Source: Hydra vulgaris
Lineage: Eukaryota > Cnidaria > Hydrozoa > Anthoathecata > Hydridae
Direction: 5' to 3'
Assembly: GCF_038396675.1 (NCBI RefSeq)
Contig: NC_088926.1
Location: forward strand, 14,817,501 to 14,881,500
Length of the DNA: 64,000 nt
In this document: piece by piece, positions 7,088 to 56,233 of the stretch
Layout of the letters: each line of letters opens with the position of its first letter
Position numbering within the stretch: position 1 is the first letter of the stretch
Position numbers and translations under genes: made by a program
Notes under the pieces: model-generated
Seen by the model: only the letters and a program-made list of their open reading frames with translations
Database searches by the model: none
What the model was told of the DNA's origin: nothing

Positions 7088-7556
7088 TTTTTTTTTTGTT
7101 ATTTTATTTTTAAACATCTTTGCTTCCAACATAGATGCAAGCAACCACTAATTAAAGTTGGAAGTTACTGAAAGAGAAAAGATGAAGATTGTAGAGCAAG
7201 ATAATGATTGACGGACGACTTAAAGGATTGCAAATTATATGAATCAGGAAAGCAAGATGAAGGAAATGAATTCCAAAGAACTGATGTTCGAGGAAAAAAA
7301 CTAGACAAATAAGAGTTTTTGGAGCACTTAGGAACAGTCACAGAAAAAAGATGAGACTTAATTGAATGACGAGTAACACAAGAATGAATTTTAGTAGATG
7401 GCACAAGAGACGCTATCTCTTTAGAGCAGTGCCAATTATAGTATTTGTAGAAAAGAGAAAGAGAAGCAACATTACGACGATGTGATAATGGTTGGAGGTT
7501 GGCTGCAAGAGCAGGTCCAACTATGTTTACAATGAGTTTTTGCACCTTGTCTAAAA
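7088..7556 (-). mobile_element. LINE family 1, 5'-truncated 3' end
   Basis: Minus-strand translation from 7545 gives QKLIVNIVGPALAANLQPLS and ends in LALQSSSFLFQ. This matches the C-terminal domain of the copies at 17006-19281 and 52690-56233. The frame here is open, but only the last ~125 residues are present. The A-rich tail lies at 7088-7110, next to gttggaagcaaagatgttta on the minus strand, the family's common 3' terminus. Confidence 0.85.
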
Positions 7557-7734
7557 GAGAATTTACATTGTTTACTTAATTAACAAAAAGAAATTGAATT
7601 CAGTTCAGGCAACAAATACCTAAACTTGAATAAAGTTTTATAGCAAAATAATACTTATTTACTGAATAAGGTGCAAATTTAAGCTTTTCTCGCAGTGTTT
7701 AATTTTTGTTTTACATAATACTTTCTTCATTAAC

Positions 7735-10149: not shown

Positions 10150-13100
10150 CTAAGATTTTTTTCTGTCTCTAATATTTTTTAATTCTGTGGAGCAAACTCG
10201 TGTTAAACTCCATGACCTTGTTGAAATTTTTTTGTAATTTTTATATGCCATTACTATCCAACCTTGGAAGGTACCGGTGCCTAAAGTGACCAAATAATGT
10301 GATTGAGACAAAATACCAAGTTCGGTTAATGCAATAAATCCAGTATCATTATATATTAAACCCCTTGAATGATTGGAAGTAAATAAAACTGCATTAATTG
10401 CCTCTAACTTTTTGTTAAAATAGTAACGAGCTTTTTCAACTACACTAGAATTCAATGTTATTATTTGATCAGATCCATGCGGGCCAATATCACTTGAAAG
10501 AAATATATGCTTAATTTTTTTTTTCACAACGAGTATATTAACAACTTTTTCAAGATTGTCTAAACATTCTTTAAATCTGTCAATATTATACCACAGTAAC
10601 AGTCTTTCAGAACGAATGTGAATTCCAAGATAAGAATTATGTTTGAATTTCTCTCTAATAAAGTTATTTATTTCATTATAAACAAGTTTACTAAACTTAA
10701 TTTGAGACAAATAAAATTCATGTGGTTGTGGAAGTGTGATATTAAAATGAGCTCTTTGATAACCAACTCCACGCCATAAAAATATAGAAACACATTTTTT
10801 CATTTGTATTATTTGTTTCAACCGTGCAATAGTTTTGATGAGTTCAACATCTATACAAATACCTTGACTAATAAACAACCCTTTGATTCTTGAACTAGTT
10901 GAAATTTTTTCTTCAATAAAAGAGCAGTTAGTCAAGCCACCATTTTCTTTTAACTTTGATTCTATTATACTATATTCTTCCTCTGAAAAATTTAAATACC
11001 TTTTTGTTTCATCTTTTCCTCCAGCATAAAAAAAATAAATCATTGTTGTAGAAGGACAATGTGACAAATAATGTTCTAAATTAACTATGCCATTAAGAGA
11101 TAACCTTGAAAAAATATTATAAATAGATTCCATTTCAAAATAATTGTCCAATGGAAGAAACTCCCTACTCTTTTTGCGCATTGCACCTGTCCAACCACTT
11201 CTTAGACCGCAAAAACGAGAATGCCTAACAAATGGCTCCACAAGATTTCTATTTAGAAGAGTTGCAAGCAAACCAGCCTGAAGAAAATTTATTGCTGTTT
11301 TCCCAAGTTGTTCATAATGACCTAGCAAAAACAAATATTGGGAGGTCATCATTGTACTTGATCTGTTAGCAGAAATGATAGTTGGATCTTCATTACTATT
11401 TGAGTTTTCAGAACTTTCTAAAAATTTATTATCTTTTTCTAGGAATACGCCAATCTGTTCTACAAAACGATATGAACCAACTATTTCTAAAAAATATATT
11501 AAAAAATGCATAAACAGTGCTAAAATGTTCTTTTAACACAACCCACTCTGATGACACCTCTGGTCAGAGCGGGATGCTAGGGGAGTTGATTTAATATCTC
11601 TTTAGGCCTTAACTTTAGGCCTTAGTACTTTAAGTCATTTTAAGACACTTAATCCAACTAATTTATATGTCTGTTCCCAAATGGTACATAACAATGGTGT
11701 GCTAACTCTACATGTCTGTTGTCTTTTATGAGGCTTTTGCTATTCATTTCAAGGGACATTTATTTTTTTATTTATTTAGCATTAAAAAAAATTTGACTAA
11801 AAGTTTAATAATTCTAATGCTCATAAGATTAATTTTAAATAACTTTATGGTGTATTGAATAAAATTTATATACTTTTATAAACATTATATTATAATATTT
11901 TATATAACATTATTATAACTTTTTGTGGCAACAATTGTTTACCATAAAAATATCCTAACTTTTCATATTTTTATTGCCTTGAAACACTAAAAAAATTGAT
12001 ATCTTTAAAATGGTTAACATATTTTTTGTTTCTACAAATATGTAGTATGAAAATGTAAAAATAAACAGTTTTAAAAAACAAAATAAAAAAATTTAGAATT
12101 TTAAGAATAACCAATGGATAATTATTTTGAATCTTGCTCAAAGCACAAAAGTAATAGATAATTTGAAATGAAAGTTTTTAATTACCCTTTGAATAAATGA
12201 GTGTTTCAAATTTAGTCAGAAAATTTTTTCTTCATAAAGAAAACATGAACTTTAAATAAATGTTATTTGTTTTTTTAACAAAAAAACTTATTTGCTTATT
12301 TATTAACATAACATCAATTATTTTAATGTTTGTGATTTAACTATATTAAATTGTTTCAGAAATCTAAAGTTTAGAAAATTAAATCTAGCCTGTCAAAAGC
12401 TTTTTATTCATAATTAACATTTTTTTAACATTTTTAGTAACATACCTTTTGTTTATACAAATAAGCATCAGCTCAACATAAATTGCATATTTTGTAACCA
12501 GGACAACATTACAGTTAAAACACTTAACGGGTGATGCGGAAGTTATCGGACATATCCTAATTTCATTATTTGAGCATAATAATTATTTTTTGTGGTTTTA
12601 TGCGTAGGCATAAATGTTCTATAAAATATAAACTTCATTATTTGAAACACAATTATTTAAATGAGGTTAAATGCAGCTCAACGAGAATCTTTTCGAAAGC
12701 GACTAAAAATGTTTTTTGTAAATAAACCTAATATTTGAAAAAAAATAAAATCGTAAATCATTTCGAAAAGGAAGGATTTGCTCGAAGTACAATATATGAT
12801 AACCTAAAAAGACTTGAAACTGTTCAATCGTTTTCTGATAGAAAGCACCCTGGTCGTCCGACATTCTGGACTAGAGAAAAGAAAGCCGAATTAACGAGAC
12901 TTGTCAACAATCGAAAAGGGGTCAGTCAGAGAAAAATAGGTATTAAATTCGGTGTAAATCAATCGACAATTGGTCATCAGTTAAAAAAAATCAATATTAA
13001 ATATAGAAAACGTGAAAAGACTCCAAAATACACTAAAGAACAACAAATAAAGGCAAAGAAAAGAAGCAGGAAACTAGTTAACCAACTCTATAACACAAAA

Positions 13101-17005: not shown

Positions 17006-19281
17006 TTTTTTTTTTTTTTTTAAACATCTTCGCTTCCAACAAGGCTGCAAGCAGCCACTAATTAAAGTTGAAAGTTACTGAAAGAGAAAAGATGAAGATT
17101 GTAGAGCAAGATAACGATTGACGGACGACTTGAAAGATTGCAAATTATATGAATCAGGAAAGCAAGATGAAGGAAGCGAATTACAAAGAGCTGATGTTCG
17201 AGGAAAAAAACTAGACGAATAAGCGTTTTTGGTGCACTTAGGAACAGTCACAGAAAAAGGATGACACTTAACTGAATGACGAGTAACACGAGAATGAATT
17301 ATAGTAGATGGCACAAGAGACGCTAGCTCTTTAGAGCAGTGCCTGTTATAGTATTTGTAGAAAAGAGAAAGAGAAGCAAATTTACAACGATGTGATAATG
17401 GTTGGAGGTGATAATGGTTGGAGGTTGGCTGCAAGAGCAGGTCCAACAATGTTTACAATGCGTTTTTGCACCTTGTCTAAAAGAGAAAGGACATCATTAG
17501 AAGATCTGCCCCAGATATGGCAACAGTATTCCATACAAGGCCGGATTTGAGATTTATAGAAATAGAGAATAGAATCCAAAGTAAGAAAGTGTCGAGCTCG
17601 ATAAAGAGATGCAACCTTAGCAGATGCTAGTTTTGCAACTGATTTGATATATGGTTTCCAAGAAAGATTGGAAGTAAAAGTTAATCCTAGAAGATGAAGA
17701 GTAGATGACTCATCCAGTACATCACCGTTCATAAATATAGGAAGATCTAAATTATTGCGATAACGATTGGCTGAAAAAAATTGAATTTTATCTGAACTAA
17801 AGTTCACCAGCCACTGTGAGCCCCATGCTGTAGCAGAAGTGAGATCCTTTTCAAGCTCAAATGCCCCCTCCAAGCAATCAGAAGGTGTTGGTTTCTTATC
17901 ACGACAAGAGTAAATGGTAGTATCATCAGCAAACAATGCCACCTTAGATGTGACAATATCTGGAAGATCATTAATGTAAATTAAAAAGAGTATAGGGCCA
18001 AGGGTAGAACCTTGAGGAACCCCTGAAGTTACAGAATAAGAAGAAGAGTGTTGTCCATCGAGGACAACTTTTATGCTACGATTGGAAAGAAAGGATTCAA
18101 TGATCTTAAAGATGTTGCCGGATACACCATAAGAAGAAAGCTTATGGAGAAGACCAGCATGCCAAACTTTATCAAAAGCTTTTGAAATATCAAGAGCGAT
18201 GGCCTTAACCTCTCCACCTTTATCTAATGCACGATAAAACCTGTCAGTTATTACTGTTAGCAAATCAGCTGTAGAACGAGAAGATCGAAATCCATATTGA
18301 TGGTCAGAAAGTAAGTTATTAGATTCAAGATGAGAAATTGTTTGTTAATTAAAGATTCAAAAACCTTGGTTATGATAGGAAGAAGACTTATGGGACGGTA
18401 GTTAGACGAATCAGATCGCTCTCCAGAATTTTTGAAGATAGGGATAACAGATGCCGCTTTCCAGCAGGCTGGAAAGCAAGACTCTGATAAGCACTTGTTG
18501 AATAGTTTTGAGAGTATAGACGACAGCTCCGGAGAACACTTCTGCAAGACAATAACAGGTATGTTGTCCGGGCCACAAGCTGTAGAGGAGTCTAGGCAGG
18601 AAATCACTTTAGATACAGATGCTGGAGTGATATGAATGTTAAGCAATGGATCAACCTGTTTGTTGGCAATATCAGGTAGAACGCAACTAGTGGAATCAAG
18701 AGATGATATTGATGAAAAGTTTTTAGCAAACAATTCGGCTGTCTTTAGGTGAGGTGACAGTCTAAACCATACAAGAGAGGTGGAATTACAGATTTGCCCT
18801 TGTTATTGATATTATTAAAGATTCTCCAGAAGTCACGAGAGCCTAATTTTTGAGATGAGATACAAGATTTCATGAACTGAGAATAGCGGGTTTTGGCGTT
18901 AGACAAAACCTTTTTACAATTGTTTCTAGCAGTAATAAACAGAGGTCTGTTTTCTGGAGAATTGTTTTACTGATAAATATGGAAGTAACGGTTTCGATTG
19001 GCAATCGCAGCAGCACAGTGTGAAGAAAACCATGGAGGAGAGTGAGGCTTGACCTGGAATCGTCGAGAGGGAATAAAAGATTCCATGCCAGCCTGAATCC
19101 ACGAAGTTATGTAAGAAGCACATTTGTCGACAGGAAGACGAAAGATTTCTACCCAAGGGCGATCACGAAGAAAATCACGGAAAGAATCCCAGTCAGCTTT
19201 ACTGTAGTTGTAAGAGGTACGATAATAGGGGGATTCAGGTGATGAAAAAGAACGAGGTATTAGTTTTAAAGAGATCAAACT
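17006..19281 (-). mobile_element. LINE family 1 (jockey/CR1-like), 5'-truncated copy
   Basis: An A-run of 16 at 17021-17006 ends the element on the minus strand. It covers the last part of the endonuclease ([13 protein letters not shown]), the linker, the complete reverse transcriptase and the C-terminal domain. The 5' end is lost inside the endonuclease near 19281. It is the best-preserved RT of the family in this window. Confidence 0.9.
17075..19281 (-). pseudogene. LINE reverse transcriptase, frameshifted, FADD intact
   Basis: The product would copy LINE RNA into DNA at a nicked target. Visible blocks in order: [16 protein letters not shown] (linker, about 19200), SSNYRPISLLPIITKVFESL (about 18360-18420), ALDISKAFDKVWHAGLLHKL (about 18150-18200), SGVPQGSTLGPILFLIYIND (about 17970-18030), FADDTTIYS with both catalytic aspartates (17933-17922 codes FADD), and the C-terminal VNIVGPALAANLQPL. 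Frameshifts lie near 18260-18330, 18730 and 17400 (a short ggttggaggtgataat duplication). No RNase H domain is seen. Compared with the copy at 52690-56233, this one keeps about 25 residues after the endonuclease SDH block that the other has lost. Confidence 0.9.
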
Positions 19282-22799: not shown

Positions 22800-23940
22800 A
22801 CCAATACAATGAAAAATGTATGTCAAACAAAATCTCAACTTCAAAAAAAATTTTTTTATATATTTCTTTAAAGGTTTGTAAGAAATTAGTACAAAATATA
22901 TTTAACACTAGAGGCCTTTCAATGTTTCATCAGTAGTGTTAGTTTAAGTGCTGTTATGTACAAATTCATTTATTTTTTGTTACAAAAGTATTTTTTAATC
23001 AATTAATGTATTGTTGCTATTAGTTACCATTGTCTAATATTTTTTAAAACAGGAAGTGTTAGTTAAAAGTATCATGCTTTTGTTTATGCAAATGACTTTC
23101 ATAAGATAATAAATTTTTATTACTTTTAAGTTCCAGAAATACAAAAAGCTGGAAAAATGGTTCCATTATTTTTTTATTTATACGTTGGCAATCATATACA
23201 TGATTGTCAAACCTGTCTCTTGAATGGCCAGTTCTGCAACTTGAAATATGACCATTAGTGCGATTTCTCAAATTATTTGTTTTTCCAGTATACATTGATT
23301 GACCATTACAAGACAAACATTTTAGATAATAAATGACATTCTTGCTGCTACAAGTAATGTGACTTTTAATGTTCCAAATAGTACCGTTGGATGTTACGAA
23401 ATTATTTACCTCTTGTAGGTAAAATAAACAAATTTTGCAACGACTATCATTACATTTAAAAATTCCTATCTTTTTGTTATTAGATGTTGTGGAATTAAAT
23501 TTAGCAGAAGTAAGTTGTCTCAGTAAATTTGGTGGTTGTTTGTAAGCTATTACAGGATTTATGTTAGAAAATATTTTTTGTATTCTTTCACTGGTGGATA
23601 AACTGAGTAGAAGTTTGGTTTTAGTTAATATAGGTTGGCAATTCAGGTTGCTGTAAAATGTAGTGACTAAAGGAACGACTTCATTATGTTTCTTTTGTTG
23701 AGCTGTATATATATATGGAGACATATAAAGTAGAATAGTCAAAACATGAATTTTACAAATACGCTCAACAGCTAGATAAGATTTATGATTACCAACAACA
23801 TTAAGACCAGTAACATTTTTAATGTTATTGATCAGATTATCAATAACATTAAAAACAGTAACATTTAATGATCCAGGAATTGAGGGTGCCAATCTACTAT
23901 TGTTTTTGGATGATTGATGGTTCACTAGCTACTATCTGCT
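22800..23940 (-). mobile_element. Penelope-like element, 3' part
   Basis: The coding part (23925-23059) ends in a GIY-YIG nuclease domain. About 250 bp of probable 3' region follows down to the (AT)n at 22780. No reverse transcriptase is found upstream, so the copy is 5'-truncated near 23940. Confidence 0.65.
23059..23925 (-). pseudogene. Penelope-like RT/endonuclease C-terminus with GIY-YIG domain
   Basis: This part of the protein would nick target DNA for retrotransposition. The 288-residue open frame holds a thumb-like segment (VPLVTTFYSNLNCQPIL, then YKQPPNLLRQLTSAKF). A zinc-type stretch with C-x4-C-x2-C spacing (FKCNDSRCKICLF) comes next, followed by VIYYLKCLSCNGQ and MYTGKTNNLRNRTNGH. 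The last fits the GIY-YIG nuclease pattern with its conserved Arg and the following His. The order PP-N-L-x-R, Cys cluster, then GIY-YIG is that of Penelope-like elements. The RT palm motifs are absent, so it is a 5' truncation despite the clean frame. The nuclease has Y-T-G in place of the usual Y-V/I-G. Confidence 0.7.
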
Positions 23941-28620: not shown

Positions 28621-31879
<3,259 letters not shown>

Positions 31880-32532
31880 ACAAAGGGCGTTAAATGCCAG
31901 AATCGAATTTGTGAAAATGTTCTAGAACCGAATTGTGTAAAAACTGCTTAGATTCGAAAAAGATTTAACTAATTTCTGGAATCAAATTTATTGAACATAA
32001 AATGAGATTATTGAATATCACTAAAAGTTTAATGTAACTAAAAAAACTTTAAAAAAACCTAATTTTTTTCGCAACCGAATAATTTAGCATCGAATTTGTA
32101 CAATCGATTTTTTTATAATCGAATTTGTAATTTTAAAACTTAATTACTTTTCACAGCCGATTAATTTAGCGTCGAGTTTTTTTACAATCGAAGTTTTTTA
32201 CAACCGTAATTTTAATGCATTTTTGATGCAGTTCAAAGACGGCATAATTTTTCAAACTGGTTTTTGTGTTAAAGGTTAAAGTGTACATGATCCTTCAAAA
32301 AATGGTTTTTATTATTTTCGAAAATAATATATTTTTTTTGTTGCAAAGTGTTATGTAAGCATTGTAAAATCCAACGAATGCATGTGAAAATATGTTTAAA
32401 TTTAAAATAGCAAAATGGAATACAGAAAAATTGAAGGGGACAAACGGAAAAGATTTGTGTATGTTGCAGGGGACTTTGGCTACATCAAAAATAAACAATG
32501 GTTTTGTGTATCTCAAGTGTAAGCACCGTCAT

Positions 32533-33906
32533 CAGTGGCGGATTTACCATATGCGAGGCCATAGGCAAGTTTTCTATTATATTAGTTGAGTTTTAAATTC
32601 TTGTGTTCTATTGTGTTTTGGATATTTATTAGAACGTAACGAAGCAAAAAGCGCACATAGGTTTTAAATGTACATTAAGTATTTTTTTTATTTTGGATGA
32701 AGATGCACTAATAAGACTACTCAAAATGCGATACCATTTATTTTTTTCGCAGATTTTAGGAGGATCGATTACATTGACTTAAAACTTAACCTTTCTGACT
32801 TTTAAAGACGCAAACTCATCAATTAAATCAGAACAGTCCAAGGACCGACTTATTTTATTTTCAATGGAAATTAAAGCTAATGCAGATAAGCGGTCTTGAC
32901 CCATAGTGGAACGTAAATAGTTTTTTATGAGTTTTAATTTGGAAAATGACTTCTCTGCGCTTGCCACTGAAATAGGGGAAGTTAGTAAAATTCGTAGGGC
33001 AATAAATAAATTTGGAAAAATTTCGATTAAAGAATTTGCCGTAATATACTTCAAAATTTCCAGTGCATCTTTCGATTCCGCTGAAGCTTCCATTCTTAAA
33101 AATGTATTTATTTCCGAGTATAACTCTTCATGGTTCACGTCCGATTCTTCTGTACTAGGATTTCTCAGTGATATTTCTAAATTTTTACAATCATTCAACA
33201 ATTCATTTGCATCTAAACTTCGCATTTTTTCGGTACGGGTTAAAAAACCTAATATTTGTTGTATGAATCAAGCATTTTGAATCTTTCATTTAAGCTTACT
33301 AATGCAACATCAATTATTGCATTAAAAAAATCTACTTTATATTTAGACTTTCCATTTAGAGGTGTATCAGTTCCTTCATATTCACGTGTCTTGTGAAATT
33401 TTCATATGTCTTGCTGTATATTCTTCATATGTCTTGTGCAACAGTAAAAATGTAAAGACAATATTATATAAAATAAATAAACAAACAAACAAAAAGTCAT
33501 TCAGTTAGGAGGATGGAAAAACAGAAAAAGCCTTTGAGACGTGCAGGTGTATATGGGCAAAGATATATTTGTCACAGTCATTGTCAATGTATATGAGACT
33601 AGAAACCGCATACTCTTTCATATGGTTGCCAGGCATTATGTATAACGCAAAAAAAATTGCTACATACATAATAATAGATGTATATGTAGGTTGAAAATAA
33701 AGTTCAATATTTTATAAAAATACTGTTTATAAAAATACTGTACGCATACATTATATTGAATTTTAATAAATGAGTTTCGTTGATTATATTTATTGTACTA
33801 AGAAATTTTTTTTATATTACTTGTACTAAGAAAAAAAAATGCGAGGCCACCTGAGCGCGAGGCCACCGGCAAATGCCTGCTTTGCCTGTGCTTAAAACCG
33901 CCGCTT
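32533..33906 (-). mobile_element. hAT transposon with 8-bp target duplication
   Basis: Its left end begins CAGTGGCGGATTTA and its right end is the complement of AAGCGGCGGTTTTA. The direct repeat ACCGTCAT flanks it (32525-32532 and 33907-33914): the 8-bp duplication typical of hAT elements. It is inserted in the MULE transposase gene. Only the C-terminal third of the transposase remains, so it is internally deleted. Confidence 0.9.
32779..33410 (-). pseudogene. hAT transposase C-terminus (dimerisation domain)
   Basis: The minus-strand frame from 33225 to 32779 contains FPNLFIALRILLTSPISVAS followed by AEKSFSKLKLIKNYLRST and LSALALISIENKI. This is the hAT C-terminal dimerisation region (PF05699 type). 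Upstream, 33410-33230 reads EGTDTPLNGKSKYKVDFFNA and SLNERFKMLDSY with a stop and a frameshift before FLTRTEKM-like codons. The N-terminal zinc finger and catalytic core are gone. Sequence style is that of ZMYM/TTF-type hAT proteins. Confidence 0.8.
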
Positions 33907-35589
33907 ACCGTCATTTTTGCGTCAGCTATTTTTAAATGTTAATAATTTCTCTTTTTCAGAAACCACTATCCTGTTTGTTGATGCTACATTTCGTGTGGTT
34001 CCTGCCATCTTCCATGGTGGTCAGCTGTTCAATATTTCACTGGAGTTAGGAACAATGATCGTGCCTGTTCTGCATGTCTTAATGAATGAACGAAAAGAAG
34101 GTCTCTACCTACGTGTTTTAAAAAGCTTCGCGAACTTTCTTCAACTTTAGTGCCACAGGCTGTGATGGCTGACTATGAAACTGCCATCGAAAACTCTGCC
34201 AAAGCTGTTTTTCCAAACATAAGAGTAACCGGTTGCAGATTTCATTATGCCCAGGCAATTCTCAAAAAGATTAAAGCCATTGGTCTGCAGGTGGAATACA
34301 CAAGGAATAATGATCCAATCATCAGAAAATGGTGTCGTAAGTTTATTTCCATGAGCTTGCTACCACCCAATTTAGTAAGGCCTGAAGTTGACAAACTAAA
34401 AGCTGAAGCTAATCATCACAGTGACATTGCTGTTAAAGAAAAAATGAAAAGTTTGTTCAGTATTACGAAAGGTATTGGATGTTCCAAAAATCTCCTGAGA
34501 TGTTTTCTGTTCATGGCGTCATCGTACTAACAACGTGTCTGAATCCTTACACTCTAAGATAAATCGTTCAATGGCAGCACACCCTGGGTTTTGGCGTTTC
34601 TTGGACGAACAAAATGTAAGTCTTTATATAATAGCACTTTAGTGTTTTGATGCAGCAGTTGAGATCCTATCCTTAAAACTATCTTTAAAATATCAATTTT
34701 AAATAGGTCGTCTATCCAATGGAAGTTGAGATGCTCCAGATCCGAAATGGTTCCCAACATAGAAGAGATCTGCGTCAGGATCGTCAAAGGCAGCATGAAC
34801 GCCTTCGTGGGTACGAAGAAAAGCTTGCAAGTGGTGAATGGACTGCAACCAAATTTCTTGAAGCTGCATCATTCCTCTGCAACGATATGAAAATGCCAAG
34901 TGATCAGGAAGTTCAAGAATTCATTGAACAGGTTAGATAATTCGTTACAATTTATAACAATAAACAAAAAGTATTTACTGCATTGTATTCATGTTAGCGG
35001 TTTGTTGTTGTTGTTTTTGACTGGTGGAGAACATCTACTAGTTAGACGTTTTATATTTACACTTTTTTTTTGGAATAAACTGTTGATGAAGAATCTCAAT
35101 CAAATGGACAAGCTGCTGTGGTGGAAAGACCAATTGAAAATGTTTGCAAAGTTTGTCTCGTGAACAATCTTCAAGTTGTTGTTTTTCCTTGCCGCCATCT
35201 TTGCCTATGCCAGCGATGTGCTGAAGCTACTTAAAGTAGTTCTATTAATCACTGTCCAGTATGCAGAGGACCAACATCAGATTTTATAAATGTGTTTATT
35301 TAATGTACTATTTAAAATACTATTGCATACATTAAATTTTTTATTTGTTTAACTGATTCGATTCTAGAAGATTCGGTTCTAGATGGTGGTTCTATATTAT
35401 TTGACTGAAAGAAGTTTTAATAATATAATTTAAAAAAATCGATCCTAAAAAATTTGACTGTAAATGATTCTATCCTAACAAAGTTCAAATTCGATTCTAA
35501 ATAGCTTCGATCAATAAAAAATTTGATCGTCTCATTCTATTCTATTTAAATTCGGTTCTGACATCGGACACGAAAGTTAGTTTTATGCA

Positions 35590-38260
35590 TAGTTTTAAAT
35601 GCTTTGGGGTTAATAAAAATTCATAAAGCTGTTAGTGTTTAAAATGAGATCTTTTAATAACGTTTTCAGAGTATTTAAGTTATTCGATTTTTCCAGTTGA
35701 ATATTTTTGGATATTAATTTGTTATATAGACAAAGACTACGGTACGAAATGGAAAAGCGCGAGAGATAAGTTTTTTTAAAAGGTACGTTGAAGTTTCCCG
35801 TTCCTCTGGTGTGGTATCTATTTTGCTATTTTGGAAGAAATTCTTTGAAAAGTAAGAAGGAACAATTCAATGTTTATATTTGAGCATAAATAACAAATTT
35901 TGGAATATATTTATTGAATATACATTTAATTTGGTTAGTTTGGATTTATGAGTACTCGCCCATGCAACATTAGCGTATATGTCGTAGCTTTGTATGAATG
36001 AGAAGTATAAGAACTTTAAATTTTCAGGAGACAGTATAAAACTAGCTTTGTAGAGGATACTAATGTTTTTTGATATTTTGGTATTTAATACATCTGTATG
36101 TGATTTCCATGAGATGTTCTCATCAATAAGTATCCTTAGAAATTTAGTTGCATGGGTTCTCTCTATTTCTTTAGTATCTATATTTAGCGAAGGTAAATTG
36201 GGAGGTATTTTTTTAAGATTAGAATGAAAAAGAATGTATTTGGTTTTTTCTGTGTTTAGCGATAATTTGTTAGATTTTAACCAACTGTTTATTTTTTCAA
36301 GTTCAGTATTTGTAGTTTCATAAAGTTCTGTAATTGATGAAGATGCATAAAAAAAATTGCTGTCGTCTGCGAACATTATGACATCCAATTTACTTGAGGC
36401 TTTAGGAAGATCGTTTATGTATATTAAAAACAAAAAAGGTGCAAGAATGGAACCTTGGGGGGCACCGCATTTTATTTTGAGTAATTTTCAAAATTTCTTT
36501 TCATGAGCAATAACGCATTGTTTTCTGTCTAGTTAAAAAAATTTGAACAGTTCAGTGCAACACCTTTTATCCCATATTTTTCAATTTTCCTAATTAAGAT
36601 AGCGTGATCTACTGTTTCAAACGCCTTAGATAAATCAACAAAGACTCCAAACTATTTTTTATTTAGGATTTTGTTATTTGTTAGATATTTTATACAGCTT
36701 ATTGTATTACTCTCTCCAAAAGTTTTGAAAATACAGGAAGAACTAAGATAGGTCTGTAGTTATTTAGTGTAAAAGAATCTCCGGTTTTTAATATTGGTAT
36801 TACCTTAGCTATTTTTAATTTATCGGTACAGATCCTGTAATAATTGAAGATTTAAATATTTCATAGATAATTGTTCACCGGAAACACATTTACAACTATA
36901 TAGCTACAAATATCGTCGTCCCAGGGGCCTTATTTGTCTTAAGCGAGTTTTTTGCAATTTCTAGTTCTTCATGGTTTAGTCCAGAGAAAATATTTAAATA
37001 GAAATGTTGGTTTGTGATATAGGTTTCGAAGGAGATATCAGGGCATTGAATTTTTGAAGCCATGTTAGGGCCTATGCTTGCAAAAAAAACTATTGAAGTT
37101 TTCAGCGATAGAAATTTTGTCGATATATTCAGTTTCGTTAACGATAATTTTATTGGGTAAATTATTTGATTTTGTATGGTTTTTACCTATTATTTCTTTC
37201 AATATGTTCCAGGTTTTTTTAATTTCACTTTTGCTTTTTTGTAGTTGTTTTAAATAATGTATTTTTTTTTTTGAATTCTTTCTAATTTTTAAATGCGAGT
37301 CTTTAAAATTTTGAATAGAGAACTGATTAATTTTTCTTTTATAAATTTTGGCTTTAGGATTGTTATAGGTTCTTAAATCTAGAGATAATGAAAAATAAAT
37401 AGGAAAATGATCTGATATATCGGTTTTGATAACTCCTGCTTTTAAAGAGGTTTCTAGAAATGCATTTGTTAATATATTGCCTATAGCAGAGACGGAGGTT
37501 GGGGTTACCCGAGTAGGTTTGTTGATGATTGGAAGGATACACAATTGAAATAGATTATCAAAAAAGAGTTTAGTAAACGCATTTTCTTTGTAGTTTAGAC
37601 TGTTAATATTTAAATCCCCTATAAAGAAAATATTTTTTCCCTTGTCATTTATTTTGAGTAAGATTTCATTAAAAAAATTTGAAAAATTAGTTATATCACC
37701 TTCTGGAGGTCTATAGCAAGTGGAAATTATAATATTTTTTGATTTATTACCCATTATCTCAATAGTAAAGACTTCGCTATCAGCGTCAGAGATGGAGAGG
37801 TCTTGTCTTACTTTAAACACTTGATTATTTTGGATATACGTTGCGATCCCTCCTCCCCTTTTGTTTGTTTTTCTTTCAAAAGATATTAGTTTATAATTTG
37901 GAATTTGAAAATTAGAGTTCGTTAGTAAAGATTCATCAGAACACCACGTTTCGGTTATGCAAATCATACTAAATGAGTAATTGCAATCTATTAGAAAGTG
38001 TTTTAGTTTATCAAAATTTTTATTTATACTTCTTATATTTATGTGTATTGCAGTAAAATTATTTTTTAAAGTTTCAAGTTCAATTTTAAAAGTTTCTGTT
38101 TCGAAGTATTGGAATCAAAATTATTTCTGTGAAAAATTTGCGCATCGGAGTCGTAAAAATTATTTGATAAAATATTATTAGCAGTTTCGAAGACGGTGCA
38201 ACGCAGCGTTTCAAAATCTTTTGTTTTGTTTTTGTCTTCGTTAGTCACTGGGTAAAGTGC
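35590..38260 (-). mobile_element. LINE family 2 (CR1/L2-like)
   Basis: Endonuclease, reverse transcriptase and C-terminal tail occur in order on the minus strand. The 3' end lies against the right end of the MULE element. The coding part is broken by several frameshifts. It differs clearly from LINE family 1 in sequence and is related to the fragment at 4410-4692. Confidence 0.85.
35600..38248 (-). pseudogene. LINE endonuclease-reverse transcriptase, frameshifted
   Basis: From 38248 a Lys-rich start (MTNEDKNKTKDFETL) leads to NNFTAIHINIRSINKNFDKL, the first endonuclease block. The next frame (37967-37065) has CITETWC, GGGIATYI, FIGDLNIN and ISDHFPIYF, all expected endonuclease motifs. The RT follows in pieces: KTNKAPG, KIAKVIPILKTGD, LNNYRPI (about 36980-36720), then FLIYINDLPKAS and MFADDSNFFY with both catalytic aspartates (36433-35867), NSWLKSNKLSLNTEKTKYIL, and a tail reaching about 35600. 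The protein would nick DNA and prime reverse transcription. It is dead through frameshifts but retains the catalytic residues. Confidence 0.85.
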
Positions 38261-52689: not shown

Positions 52690-55600
52690 CAATGGGACAT
52701 AATGGGGTATTCTCCATTTTACCCCAAGTTTTTACCTCTGCCTTGGGGCTCTTGGTTGAGTAAAGGCTAGAGATGGTGTCTCGATAAAAATACTCATTTT
52801 GGGCAATGTTAAATGCACCCAGCTACTGTCTTGTAGAAGGCCTCCTAGGCAAAGACTTAAGAGGTTAACAGACTCTATCTGTTGACCAGCCTCGCACCCC
52901 TTCTTCATATATTAGGCTGACGCAGATGTATTTTTAATACATTGTTTCCAGTTTAGGATGTTGAATGCTGGATCTTCTTGACTCAATGCATGGGTTTTGC
53001 TTGTGTCTCTGTTTTTATGACTAGGCAACTCATTCTATTATCTCCTAATGAGGGTACAGCTCTAAAACTCAGTTTTATGGTTCTGAGGCCGGCTGGTAGT
53101 CAGGTTTCCCGAACTCTGTGGTAGCTCTCAGAGAGGCTGATTCCATCAACAGCTGAAAAATATCAAAGTATTAACAGTGCTATGTTGCGCATGGATGGTG
53201 TCCCTGTTTGTACTTTTGGTGTGCATTGCGGAGGCAACATTTGGAGCCCTTTGTTACGGCTTAGGGTTTATTAGTAGTAATGAGGCAATTGCTTGGGCTA
53301 TTAAGCGGTGTTCTGAGTACTATCTATGCTTTGAGTCACCTTCTTCAATCTAATTTAAAAATGGATAAAGTACCAAAAACTAAAAAACACAAAAACCAAT
53401 CATCATCACCAAGTTCTCTAAACCTATCATTCACTAATGTTCGTGGTCTTTAAATTAACTTTTCTTCTGTTGAGTCTTATCTCTTGCAAAGTTCACCAGA
53501 CCTACTTGCTCTTTGTGAGACTAATTTGAGTTTGGCTATCTCAACTTGTGATCTTAGTGTTGATGGTTATCTCCTCTAATTCGTAACGACTCCAATAGTC
53601 ACATGCTTGGCCTGGGCATTTACATTCGAAACAATTCACCCATTTGTCATGAAACTAGGTTTGAATCCACAGACTATTTCATGTGCTATCGTTTAGCACC
53701 ACTCTCTGGCTTTCTCTTTGTTCTATATCGCTCTCCTTCATCTCAAGACTGCACTCTTTTTGACATTATTTCTGATCATGTTGACCAAGCCCTCTCTCTT
53801 TATCCATCAGCTAATATAGTTGTTGTTGGTGACTTTAACACTCACCACTCTGAATGGCTTGGCTCTAGTGTCAGTGACTCTGCAGGCATTAAAGCCCACA
53901 ACTTTTGCCTTTCTCAATCTCTAACTCAAATAGTCAACTTTCCTACTCGCTTTCCTGACAACCCGAATCATCTACCTTCTCTACTCGACTTATGTCTTGT
54001 TTCTGATCCTAGTCAGTGCTCAGTTTCTCCACATTCACCCTTAGGTTTTTCTGATCACTACAGTAAAGCTGACTGGGATTCTTTCCGTGATTTTCTTCGT
54101 GATGGCCTTTGGATAGAAATTTTTTGTCTTCCTGTCGACAAAATTACATAACTTCGTGGATTCAGGCTGGCATAAAATCTTTTATTCCCTCTCGACGATT
54201 CCAGGTCAAGCCTCACTCTCCTCCATGGTTTTCCTCACACTGAGCTGCTGCGATTGCCAATCGAAACTGTTACTTCCATATTTATCAGTAAAACAATTCT
54301 CCAGAAAACAGATGTCTGTTTATTACTGCTAGAAACAATTGTAAAAAGGTTTTGTCTAACACCAAAACCCGCTATTCTCAGGTCATGAAATCTTGTATCT
54401 CATCTCAAAAATTAGGCTCTCGTGACTTCTGGAGAATCTTTAATAATATCAATAATAAGGGCAAATTTATAATTCCACCTCTCTTGTATGGTTCAGACTT
54501 TGTCACCTCACCTAAAGACAAAGCCGAATTGTTTGCTAAAAACTTTTCATCAATATCATCTCTTGATTCCACTAGTTGCATTCTACCTGGTATTGCCAAC
54601 AAACAGGTTGATCCATTGCTTGACATTCATATCACTCCAGCATCTGTATCTAAAGTGATTTCCTGCCTAGACTCTTCTACAGCTTGTGGCCCGGACAACA
54701 TACCTGTTATTGTCTTGCAGAAGTGTTCTCCGGAGCTGTCATCTATACTCTCAAAACTATTCAACAAATGCTTATCAGAGTCTTGTTTTCCAGCCTGCTG
54801 GAAAGCGGCATCTGTTATCCCTATCTTCAAAAATTCTGGTGAGCGATCTGATTCATCTAACTACCGTCCCATAAGTCTTCTTCCTATCATAAGCAAGGTT
54901 TTTGAATCTTTAATTAACAAACAATTTCTCATCTTGAATCTAATAACTTACTTTCTGACCATCAATATGGATTTCGATCTTCTTGTTCTACAGCTGATTT
55001 GCTAACAGTAATAACTGACAGGTTTTATCGTGCATTAGATGAAGGTGGAGAGGTTAAGACATCTTGACATTTCAAAAGCTTTTTATAAAGTTTGGCATGC
55101 TGGTCTTCTCCATAAGCTTTCTTCTTATGGTATATCCGGCAACATCTTTAAGATCATTGAATCCTTCCTTTCCAATCGTAGCATAAAAGTTGTCCTCGAT
55201 GGACAACACTCTTCTTCTTATTCTGTAACTTCATGGGTTCCCCAAGGTTCTATCCTTGGCCCTATACTCTTTTTAATTTACATTAACGATCTTCCAGATA
55301 TTCTCACATCTAAGGTAGCATTGTTTGCTGATATTACTACCATTTATTCTTGTTGTGATAAGAATCAACACCCTCTGATTGCTTGGAGGGGGCATTTGAG
55401 CTTGAAAAGGATCTCACTTCTGCTACAGCATGGGGCTCACAGTGGCTGGTGAACTTAAGTTCAGATAAAATTCAAGTTTTTTCAGCCAATCGTTATCGCA
55501 ATAATTTAGATCTTCCTATATTTATGAACGGTGATGTACTCGATGAGTCATCTACTCTTCATCTTCTAGGATTAACTCTTACTACCGATCTTTCTTAGAA

Positions 55601-56233
55601 ATCGTATATCAAATCCGTTGCAAAACCAGCATCCGCTAAGGTTGCATCTCTTTAATGAGCTCGATACTTACTCCGGATTCTATTGTCTATCTCAAATCTG
55701 GTCTTGTATGCAATACTGTTGCCATATCTGGTGCTGATCTTCTAATGATGCCCTTTTTCTTTTAGACAAGGTGCAAAAACACATTGTAAACATAGTTGGA
55801 CCTGCTCTTGCAGCCAACCTCCAGCCATTATCACCTCCAACCATTATCGTTGCAATGTTGCTTCTCTTTCTCTTTTCTACAAATACTATAATGGGCACTG
55901 CCTTAAAGAGCTAGCATCTCTTGTGCCATCTACTAAAATTCATTCTCGTGTTACTTGTCATTCAATTAAGTGTCATCCTTTTTCTGTGACTGTTCCTAAG
56001 TGCTCCAAAAACGCTTCTTTGTCTAATTTTTTTCCTCGAACATCAGCTCTTTGGAATTCGCTTCCTTCATCTTGCTTTCCTGATTCATATAATTTGCAAT
56101 CCTTTAAGTCGTCTGTCAATCGTTATTTTGCTCTACAATCTTCATCTTTTCTCTTTCAGTAACTTCTAACTTTAGTAGCTGCTTGCAGCTTTGTTGGAAG
56201 CAAAGATGTTTAAAAAAAAAAAAAAAAAAAAAA
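52690..56233 (+). mobile_element. LINE family 1, near full-length copy
   Basis: A GC-richer leader (52690-53360) precedes the endonuclease, RT and C-terminal domain. It ends in tgctt-gcagctttgttggaag, then an A-run of 22 (56212-56233). It is the only copy here with the 5' leader. Compared with 17006-19281, the RNA-coding part is more complete but more mutated. Confidence 0.9.
53361..56162 (+). pseudogene. LINE endonuclease-RT polyprotein, degraded (FADI in place of FADD)
   Basis: ATG 53361 starts MDKVPKTKKHKNQ, then LSFTNVRGL with a stop, SPDLLALCETNL, and from 53603 an open endonuclease stretch with VVVGDFNTHHSEWLG and [13 protein letters not shown]. About 25 residues seen in the other copy are missing after SDH. 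RT pieces: 54352-55005 (NYRPISLLPIISKVFESL), 55039-55452 (HLDISKAFYKVWHAGLL, VPQGSILGPILFLIYIND). At 55324-55335 the catalytic FADD is FADI, so the enzyme would be inactive even if frames were intact. C-terminal part 55755-56162 ends in ALQSSSFLFQ. Several frameshifts and stops. Confidence 0.9.

Follow-up and report, generated by a model that had tools for sequence, protein, structure and literature searches.

A RING finger inside the inverted ends of a decayed Mutator-like element of Hydra vulgaris, probably the last exon of its transposase gene

The question raised by this locus is whether a transposase and a RING zinc finger that lie close together in the genome of Hydra vulgaris belong to one gene. 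The locus is located in a stretch of 64,000 nucleotides (NCBI RefSeq assembly GCF_038396675.1, contig NC_088926.1, positions 14,817,501 to 14,881,500 of the forward strand), which was analyzed as a whole and is called the window here; its A+T content is about 71%, and all coordinates are positions in it. An earlier, sequence-only reading had described a transposase of the Mutator-like element (MULE) type carrying a C-terminal RING finger. That observation was partly confirmed and its interpretation is partly supported: the RING lies inside the element's ends and on the strand of the transposase, but the splice join leading to it is ambiguous. The anatomy is explained most simply by a MULE element in which the RING is the final exon, and the RING probably is the C-terminal exon of the MULE gene.

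The stretch from 31894 to 35564 is best read as one decayed copy of an animal-type MULE DNA transposon on the + strand, about 3.67 kb long between short inverted ends and about 2.3 kb without a nested hAT element. As the sequence-only reading had proposed, inverted, motif-rich ends enclose the coding parts. The cores of the terminal inverted repeats (TIRs; 31894–31910 on the + strand and 35548–35564 on the − strand) match at 15 of 17 positions without gaps, a length that is short for a MULE. Such a match was attained by three of 400 random pairs of same-size stretches taken elsewhere in the window, with low-complexity stretches excluded. The left subterminal region (31894–32230, + strand) contains motifs of the GAAYCGAATT and TCGAATTT types, and the same motifs are found inverted in the right one (35345–35564, − strand). 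GAAYCGAATT is present in four copies in the 64 kb, both strands counted, and all four are inside the element ends (two on the + strand at the left end, two on the − strand at the right end); in 60 Markov sequences it averaged 0.2 copies, with no more than 2 in any of them. The motif was picked after the ends had been viewed, and the count therefore supports the ends without being a blind test.

The RING piece (35082–35300, + strand) is of the C3HC4 type with IAP-type spacing, contains one inner stop codon, and is directly followed by a terminal stop. With the inner stop read as X, it was matched by the RING profile PF13920 at 47.2 bits (cut-off 27, E 1.9e-12). All eight zinc-ligand positions are present, with the spacing C-X2-C-X11-C-X1-H-X3-C-X2-C-X11-C-X2-C. 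The closest PDB matches were BIRC2 (cIAP1; E 2.3e-8) and MGRN1 (E 4.1e-8); these two head a list of 31 distinct sequences matched at E ≤ 0.01, in which other IAPs come next and CBL proteins make up most of the remainder. The RINGs of BIRC2 and MGRN1 both have the spacing of the element RING up to the last loop. BIRC2 additionally shares the arginine after the last cysteine, which we take to be the 'linchpin' of RING E3 ubiquitin ligases, as well as the position of its C-terminal tail; in the element RING this tail is hydrophobic and lines up with the last part of the BIRC2 RING. Both proteins differ from the element in what surrounds the RING: here it sits with a MULE, and its neighbourhood yielded neither a BIR nor another host domain (Pfam matches of the C-terminal pieces at E ≤ 1 included no BIR). 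An assignment of the RING to an IAP gene was rejected because of the absence of a BIR.

About 250 bases separate the end of the RING piece from the right inverted end, and thus the RING is inside the element. Like the transposase upstream of it, the RING is on the + strand; the spacing is like that of a small intron, and its frame is that of the exon before it (34707–34931). The gap is a probable second intron (34932–35081, + strand) with uncertain borders, the alternative being 34900–35091, and a pyrimidine run precedes the RING piece. For a fusion of RING and transposase in one polypeptide, this join is the ambiguous step in the present copy. When GT–AG pairs were taken from the exon and the gap, 15 of 114 gave joins that were in frame and free of stops as far as the RING's stop; among these, 34900/35092 (intron 34900–35091, AA/GTGATC ... 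GAAG) retains the largest part of the exon.

Several results speak against reading the element as a MULE with a terminal RING exon. The donor-like CAG/GTTAGA at 34932 (phase 0), which keeps the whole exon, is without an in-frame, stop-free acceptor before the RING: seven downstream AGs were examined, and the two that fit the phase (exon starts 34998 and 35046) hit stops before the RING is reached. Since 15 of 114 arbitrary GT–AG pairs join, the join 34900/35092 neither demonstrates nor excludes a fusion. The AlphaFold model of the RING piece, made without relatives, was too poor for use (mean predicted local distance difference test score, pLDDT, 45.7). At the ends, local alignment of the wider regions with gaps allowed gave a top score of 84, which was attained by one of 245 random pairs, left from 300 after removal of pairs with long AT runs. 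That alignment pairs the inner left region 32043–32237 with 35596–35400, reaching past the right end, which argues for repeated motifs and not for exact ends. No convincing target-site duplication (TSD) of the 8–11 bp expected for a MULE was found beside the TIRs among the best 10 of 9,000 combinations of start, end, and length. The repeat TTAAATGC was considered as the MULE TSD and rejected, as it is not directly adjacent to the ends of the matching TIRs. A second copy of the MULE was not found within the window.

Further points on the same side concern domains and relatives. The domain order on one strand that the sequence-only reading had proposed was confirmed for the MULE (PF10551) and RING (PF13920) domains. 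FLYWCH was not confirmed: the truncated FLYWCH-like piece had no Pfam match at E ≤ 1 (46 amino acids) or E ≤ 10 (40 amino acids), and no PDB match at E ≤ 10. Scans of viral contigs with the MULE part and with the RING part before the stop gave no relatives, and neither did a scan of prokaryote genome contigs and a phage tblastn with one MULE piece; these collections rarely hold animal transposons, and the null result was expected. In Table 1 of PMC6446971, the cnidarian subgroup of the Ghost clade of MULEs is listed with a 177-bp TIR and no zinc finger.

Among the alternatives, the one that survives best, although we hold it to be unlikely, is that the RING forms a second gene within the element, unfused to the transposase and transcribed from its own promoter or as an alternative transcript. 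A precedent is given by the most complete Ghost element, from the aphid Myzus cerasi, in which a 420-bp open reading frame (ORF) for a RING zinc finger stands apart from the transposase ORF (PMC6446971), and the uncertain splice join before the RING suits this explanation as well. On the other hand, the RING frame has 73 codons and no ATG ahead of the inner stop, and is in this respect unlike a gene of its own. Together with the pyrimidine run ahead of it and the donor-like site upstream, the missing ATG makes the RING a better terminal exon than a complete gene.

MULEs take up gene pieces, and elements that do so are named Pack-MULEs. The RING could therefore be a fragment of a host gene, for example an IAP gene, that was captured by one MULE copy and has no role in transposition, and its closest PDB matches, the IAP-type and MGRN1 RINGs, would fit such an origin. 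However, the piece closes with a terminal stop of its own ahead of the right end, follows the transcription order of the transposase, and is free of the BIR or other host domain noted above as missing. In addition, RINGs accompany MULEs in other published elements (PMC6446971), which speaks against a single accident unless capture took place repeatedly. We consider capture to be quite improbable.

That the RING is left over from some unrelated gene or transposon that happens to adjoin the MULE on its downstream side is very improbable, because the right inverted end is located beyond the RING and not between it and the MULE, and because strand and small-intron spacing agree, even though many transposon pieces are present in the window, one of them nested in the MULE, and the outer limits of the MULE are not fixed by a TSD.

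With the RING thus read as the probable last exon of the MULE gene, the parts that precede it can be followed upstream. The transposase exon (33960–34615, + strand) starts after the acceptor TTTTTCAG and contains the MULE domain. It consists of four pieces with borders set by eye (33959–34123, 34126–34461, 34461–34517, and 34520–34615), none of which has a stop in its own frame; the frames are 0, 2, 1, and 0, respectively, and the exon is thus broken by at least three frame changes. PF10551 was matched at 45.4 bits when the first three frame pieces were typed together (cut-off 27.6), and at 27.5 bits (E 4.2e-6), just below the cut-off, by the single uninterrupted piece 34126–34461. Candidate D-D-E residues were picked by eye, from the motif: the D of DATF (33980), the D of ADYE (34171), and an E in NNVSES (34541). 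The exon is followed by an intron (34616–34706, + strand, GTAAGT...TAG) of phase 0 that is in frame on both sides, which bears out the earlier statement that at least one clean intron is present. The next exon (34707–34931, + strand), which precedes the RING piece, has up to 75 stop-free codons, and no Pfam domain was found in it above the domain's cut-off.

Upstream of the transposase exon, an open piece (32413–32532, + strand, 0 stops in 40 codons) has a FLYWCH-like pattern. Its FLYWCH identity is a resemblance by eye only and was not confirmed. The piece is severed by the insertion of a hAT-type transposon (32533–33906, − strand; 32525–33914 with the TSD), which fills the gap between it and the MULE exon and was not mentioned in the sequence-only reading. 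The TSD is an exact 8-bp ACCGTCAT at 32525–32532 and 33907–33914, and the TIR-like ends are alike (CAGTGGCGG.. and AAGCGGCGG..). In this nested element, Pfam detected Dimer_Tnp_hAT at 54.6 bits (33267–32782, − strand). The dimerisation region is the only hAT domain found in it, and the insertion therefore looks like a non-autonomous remnant. A reading of 32533–33906 as an intron was rejected in favour of the hAT element with its TSD. Only about 45 bases are left between the hAT element and the MULE acceptor, and for this reason this copy has probably lost the region that linked the DNA-binding part to the MULE domain.

The copy is dead, as had been claimed from the one stop codon within the RING; the frameshifts, the probable internal loss, and the nested hAT element are further grounds.

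The pairing of a MULE with a RING is already in print (PMC6446971). The Ghost clade described there in 2019 comprises MULEs of aphids and spiders plus four cnidarian sequences, and no complete element was recovered; arthropod Ghost is entered in Table 1 with SWIM. The present element resembles Ghost, by description, as an animal MULE with a RING zinc finger; the RING of the Myzus cerasi element is the separate 420-bp ORF, whereas here it is a probable exon after the transposase on the same strand. A C3HC4 ring finger with a MULE was also described in MuDR 37_Pi, which, unlike the Hydra element, is from an oomycete subgroup of group 50, a remote group listed as SWIM-type (PMC6446971). The Phantom MULEs are likewise from animals and some have FLYWCH, a domain that is unconfirmed in the present element, but Table 1 of the same paper lists them with none, FLYWCH or SWIM, and with no RING (PMC6446971). 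In the openly licensed literature, which was the scope of the search (subscription journals and Repbase Reports were outside it), no IAP-type RING was found as a probable terminal exon enclosed by inverted ends. Among the papers drawn upon, PMC6446971 is the only one to pair a MULE with a RING; the passages considered from PMC10027918 and PMC8086355 contained nothing on such a pairing. Given this earlier report of RINGs alongside Mutator-type transposases, we regard the element as an interesting variant and not as a new kind of element.

OTU proteins are a family of deubiquitinases. A domain of this kind, named 'Ovarian Tumour Gene', is found in MuDR-6_HM, which is thus another cnidarian MULE with a domain from ubiquitin biology but has OTU instead of a RING, and no zinc finger is listed for it (PMC6446971). 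Chapaev-type transposases were in 2015 stated to be the only known transposable elements with RING fingers, and the RING of RAG1 to have ubiquitin ligase activity (PMC4411706). RAG1 and the RING-bearing Chapaev transposases are similar to the present element in that a transposase-type recombinase is accompanied by a RING; they differ in belonging to Transib/Chapaev and not to MULE, and in having the RING in the N-terminal part (PMC4411706). RAG1 is the nearest precedent for a transposase-type protein with a ubiquitin-ligase RING.

Ubiquitin-ligase activity of the element RING, which had been suggested from the letters of the sequence, is inferred only. In intact relatives, the parts would make up one protein, in which the DNA-binding N-terminus would hold the element ends, the MULE DDE domain would cut and join DNA, and the RING, dimerising by way of its tail, would recruit an E2. 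The simplest substrate would be the transposase itself, whose ubiquitination would limit its dose or free it from the ends; a less simple one would be a host protein bound at the element. That transposases may counter host control has been argued for ALP1 (PMC4671723), and is an analogy only.

A live family with a fused, working RING appears doubtful. The wider proposition is that live animal MULEs have a single FLYWCH–MULE–RING transposase, with a C-terminal, dimerising IAP-type RING as a working E3 that ubiquitinates the transposase or host chromatin to control transposition, so that recombinase and ligase would have been paired in the RAG1-like way a second time, independently; we put it forward tentatively and as somewhat unlikely. 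Should there be intact members, a transposase acting as its own ubiquitin ligase would parallel RAG1 independently and would allow testing of whether ubiquitination controls transposase dose or the turnover of transposition complexes. It would also give a reason for the RINGs beside aphid and oomycete MULE transposases and for the OTU domain in a cnidarian MULE (PMC6446971).

The surroundings of the element were also inspected. A stretch of about 600 bases, consisting mostly of (AT)n repeats, is located upstream of the MULE (30628–31260), and a broken long interspersed nuclear element (LINE) with endonuclease and RVT_1 matches (35867–38114, − strand) adjoins its right end. The tRNA scan gave 0 genes. 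Pieces of one LINE-like element are present at 7168–7575 (− strand), 17078–18802 (− strand), and 54292–56159 (+ strand), and represent at least two, probably three copies of it; long stretches of these copies are nearly identical by eye, and RVT_1 was matched at 104.7 bits by 17385–18344. The longest frame listed (10153–11532, − strand) is uninterrupted over 460 codons, has no Pfam match at E ≤ 0.01, and is possibly a host gene and not a transposon. On the same strand, a GIY-YIG domain (32.5 bits) was detected in 23062–23928, after a stretch resembling a Penelope-like element by eye.
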